Shown here: in pieces, positions 34,112 through 55,809 of the stretch
How the letters are laid out: each line of letters begins with the position of its first letter
How positions within the stretch are numbered: position 1 is the first letter of the stretch
Origin: Gemmatimonadota bacterium
GTDB taxonomy: Bacteria > Gemmatimonadota > Gemmatimonadetes > Gemmatimonadales > Gemmatimonadaceae
Direction of reading: 5' to 3'
DNA: 64,000 nucleotides
Assembly (NCBI GenBank): GCA_031127075.1
Contig: JARIFA010000007.1
Location: 1-64,000 of the forward strand
Notes under the pieces: generated by a model
The model's database searches: none
The model's input: the letters and a program-made list of their open reading frames with translations, nothing else
What the model was told of the DNA's origin: nothing
Made by a program: the position numbers and the translations under genes

Positions 34112-35086
34112 GTGCCCACGCGCCGCGAGCTCTTCTTCGGCGCCGCGGGCGCCGTCGGCGCACTCGCGCTCGGCGCCGGCGCTCGTCAGGTACGCACCGC
34201 CTTCCGCACCGCGAGCGAGCGCCCGCGCGGTGCCGACCTGATGGCGCACGGCCCCTACGGCCACGGCGTCGAGCCGCCGGACACCCTCGGCCCCGCCGCC
34301 CTCGATGCCGCGACCATCCCGCCGCCCCCGGTGCGCGGTCCCATCACCCGCGACCTCACCATCACGCAGCGCCCCGTCGCCGTCGCGCAGGGTGCGACCC
34401 TCGACGCGTGGACCTTCGAGGGCACGATCCCCGGCCCGACGCTCCGCGTCACCGAGGGGGAGACGCTCACGCTCCGGGTGCGGAACCTCACCGGCCATCC
34501 GCACAACCTCCACACGCACGGCGCGCACGCGCCGGAGAGCGACGGATGGGAGCCGATCCCGCCCGCCGGCGACCGCACCTATGTGCTACAGCCACGCCCG
34601 GCGGGGATCTACCCGTACCACTGCGACCTCACGCCGGGCGCGCAGCATCTCGGCCGCGGACTCTACGGCCTGCTGATCGTCGATCCGATCGTGTGGCGCC
34701 CACCCGCGCAGGAACGCGTCCTCCTCCTCGGCGGCTTCGACACCGACGGCGACGGCCACTCCGACGCCTTCGGCTGGAACGGCGTCGCGGGGTTCCACGC
34801 GCGACATCCCATCAGGCTCGCGCGCACGGCACCGGTCCGGCTCTACGTCGCGAACTTCATCGTCGACGAACCCGTCGCGACCTTCCATCTCCACGCGCGC
34901 ACCTTCGATGTGTTCCGCTCCGGCACCCGCCCCACGCCCGACGAGCACACCGACGTCGTCCCGCTCACCCTCGGCGAACGCGCGATCCTCGAGTGCACCT
35001 TCGACGCGCCGGGCCGCTACATGTTCCACCCGCATCAGGCGCGGATGGCCGAGCGGGGCGCGATGGGGTGGTTCGCGGTCGGCTAG
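34112..35086 (+). CDS. Tat-exported two-domain multicopper oxidase (nitrite reductase/laccase-like)
   Basis: The 324-residue product from GTG 34112 has a twin-arginine signal (TRRELFFGAAGAVGALALG). Domain 1 has GHPHNLHTHG (type-1 His131, type-2/3 His136) and YPYHCDLTPGAQHLGRGL (His170, Cys171, His179), with Leu184 where the axial Met is expected. Domain 2 has FHLHARTF and a terminal MFHPHQARMAERGAMGWF. The layout resembles NirK or two-domain laccases. The axial Leu points to a high-potential type-1 site, more laccase-like than NirK-like. It is cotranscribed with the cupredoxin/beta-helix gene, a likely electron donor or acceptor. Its stop overlaps convergent trpA by 3 nt. Confidence 0.85.
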   Translation: MPTRRELFFGAAGAVGALALGAGARQVRTAFRTASERPRGADLMAHGPYGHGVEPPDTLGPAALDAATIPPPPVRGPITRDLTITQRPVAVAQGATLDAWTFEGTIPGPTLRVTEGETLTLRVRNLTGHPHNLHTHGAHAPESDGWEPIPPAGDRTYVLQPRPAGIYPYHCDLTPGAQHLGRGLYGLLIVDPIVWRPPAQERVLLLGGFDTDGDGHSDAFGWNGVAGFHARHPIRLARTAPVRLYVANFIVDEPVATFHLHARTFDVFRSGTRPTPDEHTDVVPLTLGERAILECTFDAPGRYMFHPHQARMAERGAMGWFAVG

Positions 35087-35892
35087 GGACGGGTCGCCGC
35101 CTTCATCTCCCGCACGAACGCCGTCACCGCCTCCCGCCGCGCCGGGGCCGTCTCGTGCGCACCGATCCGGCTCACCACCGCCGACCCGGAGATCGCCCCC
35201 GACACCCCCATCGCGCGCGCGGCGCGCACGTGCGACGGCTGTGCGATCCCGAACCCCAACAGCGCGGGAGCCGCGCCGGCGGCGCGGAGCGCCGCGACCA
35301 CCGACGCAGAGTCCGCCTGCACCGTGTCGTCGGCACCGGTGACGCCCCCACGCGACGTCACGTACACGTAGCCCGCGCTCGCTCTCGCCACCTCCGCCAC
35401 GCGTGACGCCGCCGCGCCGGGAGGCAGGATCCGTGCGAGCGCGACCCCGGCCCGCGCGAACGCCTCGGCGAACCACCGCTGCTCCAGCGACGGCGCATCG
35501 GGGATCACCACCGAATCGACGCCCGCCGTCGCACACTGCGCCGCGAACGCCTCGACGCCGGCGTGCACGATGAGGTTCGCGTAGACGAGCAGCCCGATCG
35601 GCACGGTGGGATGCGCGTCGCGCACGGCGCGCAGCAACGGCCAGCACGCCGAGATGCGTGTTCCCGCATCGAGCGCGCGCGTCACGGCCGATTGCACCGC
35701 CGGTCCATCGGCGATGGGATCCGAGAAGGGAAGGCCGAGCTCCAAGCCATCGGCCCCGGCCTCCACGGCCGCCGAGATCAGCGCGAGACTTTCGTCCATG
35801 GATGGATCGCCGAGGACGAAGAACGGCACGAAGGCCAACTCGTCGCGCGCGGCGAGCCGCGCGAACATCGCGGCGTAGCGGTCAGTGCCCAC
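35083..35892 (-). CDS. trpA: Tryptophan synthase alpha subunit
   Basis: TrpA cleaves indole-3-glycerol phosphate to indole and glyceraldehyde 3-phosphate within the alpha2-beta2 complex. It has 269 residues, the normal size. Catalytic Glu and Asp lie in [18 protein letters not shown]. Further family segments are [16 protein letters not shown], and the phosphate-binding [10 protein letters not shown] and ISGSAVV. The GTG start at 35892 lies inside the last codons of trpB (11-nt overlap), so the two are translationally coupled. It is the last gene of the trp operon. Confidence 0.94.
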
Positions 35893-37072
35893 CGTTGCCT
35901 CCCTCCGCCTGATACCGCAGCACCGTCGCGAGATCTTTATCCCCGCGACCGGAGAGGTTCACGAGGATGTCGAGCGGTCGCGCCGACGAGCGCGCGAGCT
36001 CCAGCGCGCCCGCCACCGCGTGCGCGGACTCGAGCGCGGGGATGATCCCCTCGCTCCGCGCCACGAGCGAGAACGCCGCCATCGCGTCCGCATCGGTGCA
36101 CCCCACGTACCGCGCGCGCCCCGTCTCCTGCAGGTAGGCGTGCTCGGGCCCGACCCCCGGATAGTCGAGCCCCGCCGAGATGGAATGCGATTCCTGCACC
36201 TGCCCTTCGTCGTCCTGCAGGATCTGCGTGAAGCAGCCGTGGAGCACGCCGGGCCGGCCACGCTGCAGCGTGGCCCCGTGCCGCGGCGTCTGCAACCCCT
36301 CACCCGCGGGCTCGACACCCACCAGCTCCACGCTCGGATCCGGGATGAAATCGGTGAAGATGCCGATGGCGTTCGAGCCGCCGCCGACGCTCGCGACCAC
36401 CACATCCGGGAGTCGCCCCGTCGCCGCCAGGAACTGCGCGCGCGCCTCACGCCCGATCACGCGCTGGAACTCGCGCACGATGAGTGGGAAGGGATGTGGC
36501 CCCGCGACGGTGCCGAGGAGGTAGTGCGTCGACTCGTACGACGCGGACCAGTCGCGAAGCGCCTCGTTGATCGCGGCCTTGAGCGTCGCGCCTCCCTGCG
36601 TCACCGGCACGACCTCGGCCCCCATCAGCCGCATCCGCTGCACGTTCGGCTGCTGCCGCTCGATGTCGGCGGCGCCCATGTAGATACGCGTGGGGATGCC
36701 GAGCACCGCGCCGGTGAGTGCGGTCGCCACCCCGTGCTGACCGGCACCGGTCTCCGCGATGAGCCGCGTCTTGCCGAGCCGACGCGCGAGCAGCCCCTGC
36801 CCGAGCGCCTGGTTGGTCTTGTGCGCGCCACCGTGCAGCAGGTCCTCGCGCTTGAACCAGAGCCGTGAGCCCGTTTCGGTGCCGAGGTGCCGGCACTGAT
36901 AGAGCGGCGTCGCACGCCCGGCGTACGTGCTGAGGAGCGTCTCCAGCTCGGCGCCGAACGTGGGATCGGCTTGTGCGGCGAGGAACTCCGCCTCGAGCGA
37001 TTCGAGCGCGGGGACGAGGATCTCGGGGACGAAGCTGCCGCCGAAGCGGCCGTAATAGGCGGACTGGATCAT
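35882..37072 (-). CDS. trpB: Tryptophan synthase beta subunit
   Basis: This PLP enzyme condenses indole with serine to form Trp. It has 396 residues. The N-terminus [18 protein letters not shown] is canonical for TrpB1. The PLP Lys lies in [15 protein letters not shown], with [14 protein letters not shown] and the phosphate loop VGGGSNAIG. The C-terminal [10 protein letters not shown] is also typical. It has an ATGA-type junction with the upstream trpCF gene. Confidence 0.96.
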
Positions 37073-38559
37073 GCGGGCGTGCTCATAGAGACCATCTCAG
37101 GGGGAGCGGCGTGGGCGCCGAGGATCTGGAAGAGTTGAGCGAGGCGAGCGGGGTCCTTCTGCCCGGGCGCGACCTCCACGCCCGAATTGACGTCGAGCCC
37201 GCCGACCCCGAGTGCAGCGGCCGCGGCGGCGTTCTCCGGGGAGATCCCACCGGCGAGGATCACCTGGTCGCGGTCGGGGTGATCGGCGAGGAGCTGCCAG
37301 TCGAACCGGCGGCCGGTGCCGCCGTGCTGGCCGGCCACATAGGTGTCGAGCACCACGCGGTCGGCACCGGGGAACCGCAGCGCCGGGAGCGCCTCGTGCA
37401 CGCGCAGCGCCTTCCAGATCTCCACGCCGGACGGGAGCACGGCGCGCAGCGCACGCACCATCGCGGGGGATTCATCCCCGCTCAGCTGCACGGCGCCGAG
37501 ATCGAGCGCGCGCACGGCCTCGGCGATGGTCTCGATCGGCACGTCGACGAAGACACCCACCCAGGTGAGCGGGGCGGCCGCGCGCACCGCCCCGGCCTGC
37601 GCGAGTGTCACACGACGCGGTGATCGTTCCGCGAAGATGAGCCCGCCGTGCGTCGCGCCCTCGGCGTGCGCCGTCGCCGCGTCCCCGGGGCGCGTGAGCC
37701 CGCAGATCTTCGTGAGCCCGAACCGAAGGCGGCGCACGGCGCGCGGCACGTCCGGCTCGGTCATCAACGCCGAGCCTACGAGGAACGCATCGACCAACGG
37801 CGCGAGCGCGCGCACGTCGGCGTGGGTGCGGATCCCGGACTCGCAGACGCGCACGCGGTCGGGCGGTACCAGCGGCGCGAGCCGCCGCGTCGTGTCGAGG
37901 TCCACCTGCAGCGTGCGGAGGTCGCGGTTGTTGATCCCGATGACCGGCGCGACCAACCTGATGGCGCGCACGAGCTCCGCCTCTGTGTGCACCTCGGTGA
38001 GTGTGGCGATCCCCGCCGCGCGCGCGGCGGCGGCGCAGGCGAGGTACGCCGCATCGTCGAGCACGGAACACATCAGCAGGATGGCGTCCGCCCCCGCGGC
38101 CCGCGCCTCGAACACCTGGTACGGATCCACCACGAAGTCCTTGCAGAGCACCGGCACGTCCACCGCGGCGCGCACGGCGCGGAGGTCGTCGAGGCTCCCC
38201 CCGAAGTAGGGCGTGTCACAGAGCACTGAGATGGCCGCGGCGAAGGGCGCATACGCGCGCGCGATCTCCGCCGGCGCGTGCGCCGTGCGCAACACCCCCG
38301 CCGACGGCGAGGCGCGCTTGTGCTCGAGGATGAACCCGGGCCGCTGGCGCCGGAGGGCGGCGGTGAAGTTGCGGTCGGACGGCGTGCAGGCGGCGCGCAC
38401 CGTGGCCAGCGGGCGCCGCGCCTGCCGCTCGCGGAGGTCGGCACGCGTGCGCGCGACGATCTCGCCCAGCACGCCCGACGCCACGCTCGGACCGTCGCCC
38501 GAACCCATACCCGAACCCGGGTGTTCGGGCGCGCCCTCAGCCACGCGTCCCACCGGCAT
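37069..38559 (-). CDS. trpCF: Bifunctional indole-3-glycerol phosphate synthase / phosphoribosylanthranilate isomerase
   Basis: The product of about 496 residues joins two TIM barrels in the E. coli TrpC order. The IGPS half (to about residue 280) has [57 protein letters not shown] and [12 protein letters not shown]. The PRAI half begins [13 protein letters not shown] and contains [10 protein letters not shown] and [19 protein letters not shown] with the catalytic Cys and Asp. The ATG at 38559 overlaps trpD by 23 nt. A downstream ATG at 38508 and a GTG near MLGEIV are alternative starts. Confidence 0.93.
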
Positions 38560-39652
38560 CCGTCACGCACGCCTCGTGCGAACAGGCGACCCACCGCGCG
38601 AGCCGCTCCGCCGCGCGGCCGCTCGCGAGCACGTCGAGTGCGAGCGTCACCCCCTCGCGCAGGCTCCCCGCACGGTCCGTGATGAAGGCGAGCGCCCCCA
38701 CGTTGGCAGCGATCGCGTCGCGATGCGCTGGCGCGCCCCGGCCCTCCAGCACCGCGCGGAGCAGCGCGGCGTTCGCCGCCGCGTCCCCGCCGGCGAGCGC
38801 CTCGAGCGGATACCGGGTGAGCCCGAGCGCCTCCGGGGTGATCTCGAGCGTGGTCACGTGGCCGTCGCGCAGGAGCGCCCCCTGCGTGGGCCCGTGCAGC
38901 GCGATCTCATCCAGCCCGTCGCCGTGCACCACGAGCGCCACCTCGGCGCCGAGCTGGCCGAGCGTCTCGGCGAGCGGGGCGCAGAGCGCGGGATCGTACA
39001 CGCCGACCAGTTGGTGCGTCGGACGGCTCGGGTTCACGAGCGGGCCGAGGAGGTTGAAGATCGTGCGCGTGCCGAAGGCACGGCGGACGGGGGCCGCGTG
39101 TCGCATCCCGGGATGGTGTTCCGGCGCGAAGAGGAAGCAGATGCCGACCGCATCGAGGCAACGGCGCGCCTGCGCCGGGGTCGCGCTGAGTCGCACGCCG
39201 AGCGCCTCCAGCACGTCGGCGGAACCGGAACGCGAGGAGACGGCGCGGTTGCCGTGCTTGGCGACGGGGATGCCGAGTTCCGCGGCGACGATCGCGGCGG
39301 CGGTGGAGATGTTGATGCTGCGGGCGCCGTCGCCGCCGGTGCCACAGGTGTCGGCGAAGTGGTAGTCGGGGCGGGTGAAGGGGGCGGCGGCGGCGCGGAG
39401 GGCCGCGGCCGCGCCGGCGATCTCCGCCGGCGTCTCCCCGCGGACCTTCAGCGCGGCGAGGACCGCAGCGAGCACCGGCCCCGGGATCGTGCCGGCGACG
39501 ATCGCCTCGAAGAGCTGCTCCGATTCGCCGGCCTCGAGGGAGCGCTCGAGTGCTGTGAGGACGGGGCGGGGGAGGGCGTCACGGCGGGCCGTGGGCGCGT
39601 GGGCGACCGAGGTCCGCGGAGCGGGGCGCAGGGAGGACGGGACGGCGGGCAT
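38537..39652 (-). CDS. trpD: Anthranilate phosphoribosyltransferase
   Basis: TrpD transfers phosphoribose from PRPP to anthranilate, and here it is the first structural gene of the operon. The product has 371 residues from ATG 39652. The PRPP motif DTCGTGGDGARSINIST is intact, followed by VAKHGNRAVSSRSGSADVLEALG and the dimer/hinge segment RTIFNLLGPLVNP. An unconserved N-terminal extension of about 25 residues precedes the helical domain. No glutamine amidotransferase domain is fused. Expression should depend on the attenuator directly upstream. Confidence 0.94.
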   Translation of the reverse strand: MPAVPSSLRPAPRTSVAHAPTARRDALPRPVLTALERSLEAGESEQLFEAIVAGTIPGPVLAAVLAALKVRGETPAEIAGAAAALRAAAAPFTRPDYHFADTCGTGGDGARSINISTAAAIVAAELGIPVAKHGNRAVSSRSGSADVLEALGVRLSATPAQARRCLDAVGICFLFAPEHHPGMRHAAPVRRAFGTRTIFNLLGPLVNPSRPTHQLVGVYDPALCAPLAETLGQLGAEVALVVHGDGLDEIALHGPTQGALLRDGHVTTLEITPEALGLTRYPLEALAGGDAAANAALLRAVLEGRGAPAHRDAIAANVGALAFITDRAGSLREGVTLALDVLASGRAAERLARWVACSHEACVTDAGGTRG

Positions 39653-39679: not shown

Positions 39680-39807
39680 CCGCCGTGGGAAAGGCGCCTG
39701 CAAACGAAACAGCCCACGGCGGTGAACGCAGTGGGCTGAGGTGAGACGCGGAGGTCGTCGGTGACCTAGACGCGGAGAGCCCGGCTGCGAGAGGTATCGC
39801 GCCAGGG
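39680..39807 (-). promoter_or_regulatory. trp operon attenuator leader (protector, antiterminator, terminator segments)
   Basis: Mutually exclusive pairings can be drawn on the minus-strand RNA. Segment 1 (CCCTGGC, 39807-39801, containing the second Trp codon) pairs with segment 2 (GCCGGG, 39785-39780). Segment 2, extended as CGCAGCCGGGCT (39789-39778), pairs with segment 3 AGCCCACTGCG (39737-39727). Segment 3 also pairs with segment 4 as CAGCCCAC/GTGGGCTG to form a terminator. A further 10-bp perfect repeat, CCGCCGTGGG (39722-39713) with CCCACGGCGG (39689-39680), would compete for segment 4 or cover the region before trpD. This is the classical ribosome-stalling layout. Confidence 0.85.
39702..39738 (-). 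terminator. Attenuator intrinsic terminator of the trp leader
   Basis: On the minus strand, CAGCCCAC and GTGGGCTG form an 8-bp stem that extends by GCG/CGC across a single mismatch to a TTCAC loop. The U-rich TTTCGTTT follows immediately. It lies 50 nt before trpD. Confidence 0.85.
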
Positions 39808-39840
39808 ACGCCAGCAGGAGGTCGACGAGCGGTTCGCCAT
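39766..39840 (-). CDS. trpL: trp operon leader peptide
   Basis: A 24-codon ORF, MANRSSTSCWRPWRDTSRSR followed by ALRV and TAG, lies about 110 nt upstream of trpD and is absent from the supplied ORF track because it is too short. It contains two Trp codons separated by two residues (W-R-P-W) in a 24-residue peptide. The second Trp codon overlaps RNA segment 1 of the attenuator. A ribosome stalled there under Trp shortage would free segment 2 to pair with segment 3 and prevent terminator formation. No Shine-Dalgarno sequence precedes the ATG, and a TATCGT box lies 10 nt upstream, so the message may be leaderless. Confidence 0.85.
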   Translation of the reverse strand: MANRSSTSCWRPWRDTSRSRALRV

Positions 39841-39850
39841 TGGAGGGGGG

Positions 39851-39856
39851 ACGATA
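39851..39856 (-). promoter_or_regulatory. Candidate -10 box (TATCGT) of the trp operon
   Basis: TATCGT on the minus strand ends 10 nt before the trpL ATG. A weak -35-like TTGTGG lies 17 nt further upstream, within the loop region of the preceding terminator hairpin. Assignment is by position. Confidence 0.4.
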
Positions 39857-39860
39857 GTGC

Positions 39861-39893
39861 GACCGGCCCCGGGCCACAAGCCCGGGGCCGGTC
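39861..39893 (-). terminator. Perfect GC hairpin between the BNR gene and the trp leader
   Basis: A perfect 14-bp inverted repeat GACCGGCCCCGGGC / GCCCGGGGCCGGTC with a 5-nt loop lies 68 nt after the stop of the upstream BNR gene. No U-tract follows. It probably insulates the trp leader from upstream transcription. Confidence 0.6.
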
Positions 39894-39961
39894 GCGGCCA
39901 TCCGTCATCCCTCGACCGTCGTCCGGCGCGTCGCCCACCGCGCCGGCCCGCGATCCCGCCC

Positions 39962-53285: not shown

Positions 53286-54401
53286 ATGAGCCTCGCGCGC
53301 TTCGGCATCGACCCCCTCACCGGCTTCGTCCCCCCGGAGCCGATCCCCGCCGCCCTCCCCACCGGTGCGGTGGCCTGGGACGCCCTCGTCCCGAACCTGA
53401 GTGCGCATCTGCGCGCCCACACCATCCGCGACGCGCTCCGCGCGCTCCCGCCCCTCGACCTCGCCACCCTCGATGCGCCCGCCGAGCGCGAACGCGCCTT
53501 CCTGCTGCTGACGCACTACGCGAACGCCTATGTCTGGGGCGGCGCCACGCCCGATCTCCATATCCCCGCCGTCGTCGCGGTGCCGCTCTGTGCCCTCGCC
53601 ACGCAGCTCGGCCGCCCGCCGATCGCGCAGTACGCGACGATGACGCTCCACAACTGGACCCTCGTCGATCCGCAGCGCCCCCTCGGCGTCGACAACGCCC
53701 GAACGCAGGTGCGCTTCCTCGGTGGCGTCGACGAAGACTGGTTCTTCATCGCGTCGATGGGAGTCGAGCTCGCCGGCGCGCCGCTGCTCCCGATCGTCTG
53801 GGACGCCGCCGCCGCGTCGGTCGATGGGAGCGATGACGCGCTGCGCGCGCAGCTCGAGGCCTTCACCGCCGGCCTCCCCGGCGTGCACGCCGCGCTCGAG
53901 GCGGTGCGCCGCTGGTGCGACCCGCACACGTATTACCACCGCGTGCGCCCCTACGTCACCGGGTGGCCCGCGCCGGGTGTCGTCTACGAGGGCGTCGATG
54001 ACGCGCCGCGTCGCTACCTCGGTGGCAGCGCCGGCCAGAGCGCGCTGATCCAATCGTTCGATGCCGTGCTCGGCGTGCATCACCCCGCCGCCCCGGCGGG
54101 GGCGTATCTGCGGATGGTGCGTGACTATATGCCGCCTCCGCACCGCGCCTTCGTCACCGAGGTCGAGCGTACGTCGCGTGTCCGCGCGCGCGCTGAAGCG
54201 GGGAGCCCCGCGCTCCGGGCCGCCTATGATGCGGCGATCGACGCCGTCACGCGCTTCCGCGCCGCCCACCTCCGCCTCGCGCACGATTACATCGTGGAAC
54301 CCGCCGGGACCCGCGACGCGACCGGCACCGGCGGCACCGCGCTCGAGGATTTCCTGCGCGGTGCGCAGGGCGATACCGAACAGGCGCGACTCGTCCGATG
54401 A
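53286..54401 (+). CDS. ido: Indoleamine 2,3-dioxygenase family protein
   Basis: This haem dioxygenase oxidises L-Trp to N-formylkynurenine. The 371-residue product aligns with eukaryotic-type IDO rather than bacterial TDO. It has YYHRVRPYVTGW, GGSAGQSALIQSFDAVLGVHH, YLRMVRDYMPPPHRAFVTEVE, and RAAHLRLAHDYIVEPAG with the proximal His predicted at 328. The Gly-rich GTGGTALEDFL completes the C-terminus. It is followed 67 nt later by kynureninase, making a Trp-catabolic pair. No clear formamidase gene lies beside them. Confidence 0.92.
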   Translation: MSLARFGIDPLTGFVPPEPIPAALPTGAVAWDALVPNLSAHLRAHTIRDALRALPPLDLATLDAPAERERAFLLLTHYANAYVWGGATPDLHIPAVVAVPLCALATQLGRPPIAQYATMTLHNWTLVDPQRPLGVDNARTQVRFLGGVDEDWFFIASMGVELAGAPLLPIVWDAAAASVDGSDDALRAQLEAFTAGLPGVHAALEAVRRWCDPHTYYHRVRPYVTGWPAPGVVYEGVDDAPRRYLGGSAGQSALIQSFDAVLGVHHPAAPAGAYLRMVRDYMPPPHRAFVTEVERTSRVRARAEAGSPALRAAYDAAIDAVTRFRAAHLRLAHDYIVEPAGTRDATGTGGTALEDFLRGAQGDTEQARLVR

Positions 54402-54468: not shown

Positions 54469-55809
54469 ATGACCCAATCGATGCCCGCTCCACTCGATCC
54501 CCTCACCGCCGACGCCGCGGCCCTCGACGCCGCCGACCCACTCGCGCCATTCCGCGAGCGCTTCGACCTCTCGGACGACGTCATCTACCTCGATGGCAAC
54601 TCCCTCGGCCCGCTGCCGACGGGTGCGGCCGAGCGCATCGCGGTCGTCGTGCGAGAGGAGTGGGGCGAAGGGCTCATCCGCAGCTGGAACACCGCCGGGT
54701 GGATTGAGGCGCCGCTACGTGTGGGCGCCAAGATCGCGCGCCTCGTCGGCGCCGCGCCGCACGAGGTCGTCGTCGCGGATTCCACCTCGGTGAACCTCCA
54801 CAAGGTCATCCACGCCGCGCTCGCCGCGCAGCCGGGCCGGAAGACCATCCTCTCCGAGCCGGGGAACTTCCCCACCGATTTGTATCTCATCGAGTCGGCG
54901 ATCCGCACGCTGGGGAAGGGGCATCAGCTCGTGCTCGTGCCACGCGAGGAGATCGCCGCGCGGTGCGATACCGATACCGCGCTGGTGCTGCTGACGCACG
55001 TGCACTACCGCACCGCGGAGCTGTACGACATGGCGGCCGTCACGGCGGCCGCGCACGCCGCGGGCGCGCGCATCTGTTGGGACCTCAGCCATTCGCTCGG
55101 CGCGATGCCGATCGATCTAAACGCCGCGCGCGCCGATTACGCCGTCGGGTGCGGTTACAAGTTCCTCAACGGTGGCCCCGGCGCGCCGGCGATGGTGTTC
55201 GTCGCCGAGCGGCATCATGAGACGCTCGAGACGCCGATGGGGGGATGGATCGGGCATGCGCGCCCCTTCGCCTTCGAGGATACGTACGCGCCAGCACCGG
55301 GGATCGCGCGGTTGCAGTGCGGCACACCGCCGGTCTTGTCATTGGCGGCGCTCGAGGTCGGCGTGGATCTGATGCTCGAGGCCGATCTCACGCAGGTGGC
55401 CGCCAAGTCGCGCGCGCTGCGCGAGCGGTTGATGGCACGCGTCGCCGCGACCTGTGGGCCTTACGGGGCCGAGGTTATCGGCCCGCCGATCGGCCAGCCG
55501 CGTGGGAGCCACGTGAGCGTCGCGCATCCGTCGGCGTATGCGGTGATGCAGGCGTTGATCGCGCGGCCGCGCCGTCGGAGCACCATCGGCGATTTCCGGG
55601 TGGCGCCGTCGGCGCCGGCGCGGGCCGGTGTGGCCGGGAGCCTGGTGGAGAGCGAGGATGCCCCGTTGGCGGGGGTGATGCGGTTCGGGATCACCCCCCT
55701 CTACCTGCGATTCGCGGACGTTGACCGCGCGGTGGAGTCGATCGAGGAGGTGTTGCGGACGGGGGTGTGGCAGGAGCCGCGATTCCAGGTGCGGCGGGCG
55801 GTGACGTAG
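54469..55809 (+). CDS. kynU: Kynureninase
   Basis: This PLP enzyme cleaves kynurenine to anthranilate and alanine. The product has 446 residues from ATG 54469 (ATG 54481 is an alternative). Family segments include VIYLDGNSLGPLP, WIEAPLRVGAKIARLVGA, ADSTSVNLHKV, SEPGNFPTDLYL, and the Schiff-base region YAVGCGYKFLNGGPGAP (Lys231). The C-terminal MRFGITPLYLRFADVD is typical. A stretch of about 20 residues (SAPARAGVAGSLVESEDAP) sits between IGDFR and MRFG, where other kynureninases I recall are shorter. It supplies anthranilate, the substrate of TrpD. Confidence 0.94.
   Translation: MTQSMPAPLDPLTADAAALDAADPLAPFRERFDLSDDVIYLDGNSLGPLPTGAAERIAVVVREEWGEGLIRSWNTAGWIEAPLRVGAKIARLVGAAPHEVVVADSTSVNLHKVIHAALAAQPGRKTILSEPGNFPTDLYLIESAIRTLGKGHQLVLVPREEIAARCDTDTALVLLTHVHYRTAELYDMAAVTAAAHAAGARICWDLSHSLGAMPIDLNAARADYAVGCGYKFLNGGPGAPAMVFVAERHHETLETPMGGWIGHARPFAFEDTYAPAPGIARLQCGTPPVLSLAALEVGVDLMLEADLTQVAAKSRALRERLMARVAATCGPYGAEVIGPPIGQPRGSHVSVAHPSAYAVMQALIARPRRRSTIGDFRVAPSAPARAGVAGSLVESEDAPLAGVMRFGITPLYLRFADVDRAVESIEEVLRTGVWQEPRFQVRRAVT

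Follow-up and report, generated by a model that had tools for sequence, protein, structure and literature searches.

The window, that is, the whole stretch of 64,000 nucleotides analysed here, comes from a lake-dwelling member of the Gemmatimonadota and carries on its minus strand the operon trpD-trpCF-trpB-trpA (39652-35083), in which trpC and trpF are fused. Directly upstream of trpD is a short open reading frame of 24 codons, which runs from an ATG at 39840 to a TAG at 39768-39766, and an intrinsic terminator sits between this leader ORF and the first structural gene. About 14 kb from the operon are genes for an indoleamine 2,3-dioxygenase (IDO) and a kynureninase. Table 1 collects the coordinates of these features. 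The genome to which the window belongs (G000) is 82% complete; its nearest relative (G346, trp locus L060) is 96% complete, belongs to the same genus, has a TrpD 84-85% identical to that of the window, and shares both the gene upstream of the leader and the trp operon.

Table 1. Features of the trp locus and of the kynurenine-related genes in the window
Feature	Position	Strand	Basis
trp leader ORF, MANRSSTSCWRPWRDTSRSRALRV and stop	39766..39840	-	ORF; kept without indels in L060 over codons 9-25
Trp codon 10	39811..39813	-	sequence and comparison of 12 leader peptides
Trp codon 13, within segment 1	39802..39804	-	sequence and comparison of 12 leader peptides
Probable promoter (-35 TTGTGG 39879-39874, 17-nt spacer, -10 TATCGT 39856-39851)	39851..39879	-	consensus search
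Perfect 16-bp inverted repeat GCGACCGGCCCCGGGC-TTGTG-GCCCGGGGCCGGTCGC, overlapping the -35 box	39859..39895	.	sequence; kept in L060
Segment 1 (5' arm of protector)	39797..39806	-	fold
Segment 2 (3' arm of 1:2, 5' arm of antiterminator 2:3)	39778..39790	-	stalled-ribosome fold, shuffle test
Segment 3 (3' arm of antiterminator, 5' arm of terminator)	39727..39738	-	stalled-ribosome fold, pairing conservation
Segment 4 (3' arm of terminator)	39710..39721	-	stalled-ribosome fold, terminator scan
U-rich tract GUUUCGUUU, predicted 3' end of attenuated transcript	39702..39710	-	sequence, terminator scan
Segment 5, CCCACGGCGG, complement of 39722-39713	39680..39689	-	sequence; kept in L060
trpD, first structural gene	38537..39652	-	TIGR01245 over cut-off
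trpC-trpF fusion	37069..38559	-	NF006945 over cut-off
trpB	35882..37072	-	TIGR00263 over cut-off
trpA	35083..35892	-	TIGR00262 over cut-off
Indoleamine 2,3-dioxygenase (IDO) gene	53286..54401	+	PF01231, E 1.7e-89
Kynureninase gene (homologous part), candidate anthranilate source	about 54517..55809	+	TIGR01814 over cut-off

An earlier note, made from the letters alone, had described this leader ORF with its two near-adjacent Trp codons and had drawn from it a complete set of protector, antiterminator and terminator pairings. The ORF is kept in L060, the Trp codons are codons 10 and 13, and codon 13 does lie within segment 1, as the note had said. Segment 1 pairs with segment 2 over 10 bp with one bulged A (nt 35-44 with 51-61, or 39806-39797 with 39790-39780), segment 2 with segment 3 over 10 bp (CGCAGccGGGCU, 39789-39778, with AGCCCaCUGCG, 39737-39727), and segment 3 with segment 4 in a GC-rich helix of 11 bp (CAGCCCACuGCG, 39738-39727, with CGCcGUGGGCUG, 39721-39710) that runs into the U-rich tract. 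The pairings are mutually exclusive in that 2:3 rules out both 1:2 and the terminator. In the minimum free energy fold of the leader RNA (-60.6 kcal/mol), 1:2 and 3:4 are both formed, and none of 200 shuffled sequences folds as well; when the part of the RNA that a ribosome on the Trp codons would occupy is omitted from folding, the computed structure has 2:3 instead, a duplex stronger than in more than 99% of shuffles.

The 10-bp repeat that the earlier note had proposed as a competitor for segment 4 (CCGCCGTGGG, 39722-39713, and its complement, segment 5) does exist and is kept in L060. The proposed competition falls away, as segment 5 is transcribed after the terminator and therefore comes too late to compete for segment 4 when intrinsic termination takes place; pairing between the two would require a transcript that has read through. 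By eye, similar complements also follow the terminators at three other loci (L081, L168 and L147).

The same element is found in ten other Gemmatimonadota, upstream of aroF-trpE-trpG-trpD-trpCF-trpB-trpA. Their leader peptides (e.g., MQHLVTLNLWWWPWRNSAVGRASV, ending at a stop codon) include the motifs WYWSWRD, WWWPWRD, WWRWRG, WWSWPG, WWWPWRN, and WWWPWRI, and each leader is followed by a terminator. Together with the window and L060, these ten make up a set of twelve in which the leader ORF, the Trp codons, and the 2:3 and 3:4 pairings are kept, invariably upstream of trp operon genes; the conservation in related genomes that the earlier note had proposed as a check is thus present. The Trp residues of codons 10 and 13 and the Arg that follows the second of them are each kept in at least 90% of the twelve leader peptides, the N-terminal half of which is without conservation. 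The window leader has two Trp codons, whereas each of the ten aroF-led ones has three or four. In the trp operons at L145, L147, L149, L061, and L081, the attenuator is immediately preceded by a class-V aminotransferase-like gene (~380 aa) with a YLNCAYMSPL motif.

We searched with two covariance models, R1, which was built from Gemmatimonadota elements, and R2, which was built from the ten aroF-led elements with the window and L060 held out. R2 recovers the window element with an E-value of 6.8e-9 in the window and as the best match genome-wide (E 2.1e-7, the next being 0.53). This held-out match is the strongest argument against chance, and what the earlier note observed is real and well outside what chance would give. 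Within the order, R1 matches strongly in 11 of 288 genomes, and a search of the phylum added one more genome, of another family; its weak matches in G198, G215, G096, G047, G288, and G192 were rejected, since they look like terminators or coding sequence and lack a convincing trp leader. Rfam, including its trp leaders, gives no match at the gathering score in the window or at 15 loci, the gammaproteobacterial ones among them.

Across the twelve leaders, 2:3 forms in the stalled-ribosome folds of all for the first Trp codon, and the 2:3 duplex beats shuffles in all (fraction of shuffles as strong, 0-0.07); the register of 1:2 in the window pair (window and L060) is shifted by one base relative to the rest. 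The earlier note had also proposed to look for covariation in the segments. Pairing is kept: the terminator arms pair in 93.4% of cells, three of the pairs having changes on both sides, and the antiterminator arms in 88.8%, as against 27-54% for slid controls, with exchanges of G-C to A-U and of U-A to C-G. However, covariation in the antiterminator is modest, with two pairs changed on both sides and 17 of 500 shuffles reaching the observed score, and without the window pair there is no excess over shuffles. Support for 2:3 rests more on kept pairing than on compensatory changes, and the case for a predicted attenuator is built on the held-out model, the setting in front of trp operons, and the conservation of both ORF and pairing.

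All twelve leaders have a sigma-70-like -10 box whose end is 6-10 nt from the ATG (6 or 7 nt in eight), and a usable Shine-Dalgarno sequence is absent from the interval between box and ATG in each of them. At sigma-70 promoters, such a spacing sets the start of transcription at or beside the AUG. Because of this spacing and the absence of a usable Shine-Dalgarno sequence, all twelve leader ORFs are probably leaderless, as read from promoter spacing only. In the window the -35 box is weak (three of six matches), and a stricter promoter scan made no call there. The 16-bp inverted repeat that overlaps it (39895-39859) occurs once in the window and has no T tract after it; it is a possible operator, or a possible terminator of the upstream gene.

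L060, whose leader peptide is MTNRLSISCWRPWRDSSRSRALRV, keeps the leader ORF and the pairings, one change in segment 2 being kept as a G-U pair. Identity between window and L060 is complete over the terminator (37/37), 95% over the palindrome plus promoter, 94% over codons 9-25 of the leader (without indels), 74% over the linker, and 63% in the upstream intergenic DNA, a pattern that fits selection on the attenuator. One could suppose instead that the attenuator worked while aroF, trpE, and trpG were still present and has since become a decaying relic that causes only constitutive partial termination, as the loss of the first operon genes and the mere two remaining Trp codons might suggest. 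We consider this improbable, since the two species share 88-100% identity over promoter, leader, terminator, and segment 5, compared with 63% for the upstream intergenic DNA, and since the ORF, 2:3, and 3:4 are all retained, the one change in segment 2 as a G-U pair.

That the conserved stretch is coding, as an N-terminal extension of TrpD, gains some appeal from the trpD frame, which is open back to 39901 in the window; the in-frame stops that L060 has in that same frame refute such an extension, and it is the leader frame that is free of indels and has the most synonymous changes of the frames (3/9), which leaves this reading with practically no weight. A role mainly in trans has a precedent in Sinorhizobium meliloti trpL, whose leaderless layout, with an sRNA that starts at the ATG, is like that of the window (PMC7298713). 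By analogy with rnTrpL/peTrpL, the terminated leader RNA or its peptide would be the main effector here, and attenuation in cis secondary. The lack of conservation in the N-terminal half of the peptide speaks against this, and we think it quite unlikely, slightly more so than the relic, although it would be compatible with attenuation in cis. Ribosome-mediated trp attenuation, as the earlier note had read the locus, remains the best reading.

Under ribosome-mediated attenuation, transcription would start at, or a few nucleotides from, the AUG of the leader ORF, which would be translated from a leaderless or nearly leaderless mRNA. With Trp-tRNA scarce, the ribosome is expected to stall on the two Trp codons (10 and 13) and to cover segment 1, so that 2:3 would pair, the terminator would be blocked, and trpD-trpCF-trpB-trpA would be transcribed. 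When tryptophan is plentiful, the ribosome at the stop codon would cover segment 2, or its release would let 1:2 form; with segment 2 occupied, 3:4 would form and transcription would end near 39702. We infer such stalling and termination in vivo, and likewise the start site.

The window TrpD is ~45% identical to most Gemmatimonadota TrpD and 52-61% identical to a minority, in which the gene order, where the upstream DNA could be read, is aroF-trpE-trpG-trpD-trpCF. In the TrpD tree, a branch with 100/100 support separates the window, these similar Gemmatimonadota, and Gammaproteobacteria from the native Gemmatimonadota TrpD. The gammaproteobacterial relatives have operons led by trpE or aroF, each with its own leader, and R1 also matches at the trp operons of Pseudoalteromonas, Neiella, and Alkalimonas. 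Because the window TrpD falls in the gammaproteobacterial-type clade rather than the native one, the operon probably came in together with its attenuator. Their joint transfer, in one or more events, would be the simplest reading.

The claim of the earlier note that the attenuator precedes an operon beginning with trpD is correct, and the relatives clarify how this came about: aroF, trpE, and trpG are missing between attenuator and trpD in the window lineage and present there in the relatives. The distance from the terminator to the first gene is 47 nt in the window and 11-46 nt in the relatives, as would be expected if aroF-trpE-trpG was deleted between leader and trpD. The element would thus have arrived with a proteobacterial-type aroF-trpE-trpG-trpD-trpCF-trpB-trpA operon, and it now adjoins trpD as a result of the loss; the switch was probably inherited from this larger operon and kept despite the loss of its first genes. 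A domain search of the window genome (82% complete) found no PF04715, and the chorismate-binding domain PF00425 (TrpE/PabB) was found in neither this genome nor G346, although it is present in four congeners; a missed trpE is possible in a genome of this completeness. TrpR was not found in the two genomes or in five relatives. Elsewhere in the genus, the genomes G049 and G266, both small (1.8 and 2.1 Mb) and almost complete, have no strong TrpD match and no chorismate-binding domain; they are probable tryptophan auxotrophs, and the genus therefore seems to lose tryptophan synthesis repeatedly.

How, then, might the shortened pathway be fed? G346 has the IDO and kynureninase pair on the contig of its trp operon (94 and 83% identical to those of the window), and among the genus members examined only these two genomes have the pair, the other congeners having only a distant kynureninase (32-35%). 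Given the pair in both genomes, a kynurenine-derived feed of anthranilate is plausible. The attenuator, preceding an operon that lacks trpE in a genome with a kynureninase, would therefore probably control the conversion of anthranilate to tryptophan, with the anthranilate coming from kynurenine via KynU or by uptake. We hold this salvage reading with less certainty than the attenuator itself, because IDO would also consume tryptophan and, together with tryptophan synthesis, could form a futile cycle; no formamidase was identified in the 82% complete genome. A role of the kynureninase in NAD synthesis was considered and is not supported, 3-hydroxyanthranilate dioxygenase (PF06052) being absent from both genomes within the limits of their completeness and of a search that matched none of 14 control genomes either.

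Taking everything together, we hold with high confidence that the window element is a classical ribosome-mediated trp attenuator, which probably arrived with a proteobacterial-type operon and now probably controls the step from anthranilate to tryptophan. More tentatively, and with somewhat less than even chances in our estimate, it may belong to a leaderless, TrpR-independent attenuator family of Gemmatimonadota that, in one freshwater lineage, is the sole known tryptophan control of a kynurenine-fed pathway without trpE, where it would prevent a futile cycle of tryptophan, kynurenine, anthranilate, and tryptophan by RNA alone after the feedback-inhibited enzyme was lost.

In its Trp-codon leader ORF, its 1:2/2:3/3:4 logic, and an operon with a trpC-trpF fusion, the element is similar to the gammaproteobacterial trpL of E. 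coli, Pseudoalteromonas, and kin, but it differs in having trpD first, neither anthranilate synthase nor TrpR found, and an apparently leaderless ORF. Sinorhizobium meliloti trpL is similar in its attenuation control, without Trp-dependent repression of initiation, and in its leaderless layout, which in the window is predicted from promoter spacing only; unlike the window element, it controls trpE(G) alone (PMC7298713). Classical trp attenuators outside Proteobacteria are known from Corynebacterium and Streptomyces (PMC1262725) and differ from that of the window in phylum and operon layout. The operon trpR-trpDCFBA-kynU-prsA of Chlamydia caviae, C. felis, and C. pecorum, which lacks trpE and draws anthranilate from kynurenine (PMC10242142), has its counterpart here in trpDCFBA genes with a kynureninase and without a detected anthranilate synthase, in a genome that is incomplete and with a putative anthranilate source; Chlamydia, however, uses the TrpR repressor and has kynU in the cluster, whereas the window has an attenuator and kynU ~14 kb away.

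According to a survey of 2010, regulation by leader peptides was known from Proteobacteria and Actinobacteria and, as a new addition, from Firmicutes, but from no other phylum (PMC2965389). The earlier note's impression that no such attenuator had been described for this lineage agrees with the open literature, in which we found no description of a trp attenuator in Gemmatimonadota. The mechanism is a known one, and the phylum and the operon context look new; to our knowledge, there is no earlier case of an attenuator controlling a trpE-less operon. The locus would extend classical ribosome-stalling attenuation to Gemmatimonadota and would offer a natural case of trp pathway control once the feedback-inhibited first enzyme is gone; its regulatory RNA has probably moved along with the operon and outlived the gene it usually precedes.

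Besides the trp elements, a leader-type element with the peptide MSRMSDTYWYYTTLLHGPSPKV and a stop codon was observed at another locus (L176; G252:C99:23087-23220, minus strand), behind TTGACA-N18-TAGTTA-N5-ATG and followed by a terminator. The gene downstream encodes a biopterin-dependent aromatic amino acid hydroxylase (PF00351), and the element is a candidate tyrosine-codon attenuator that is leaderless in layout, too.
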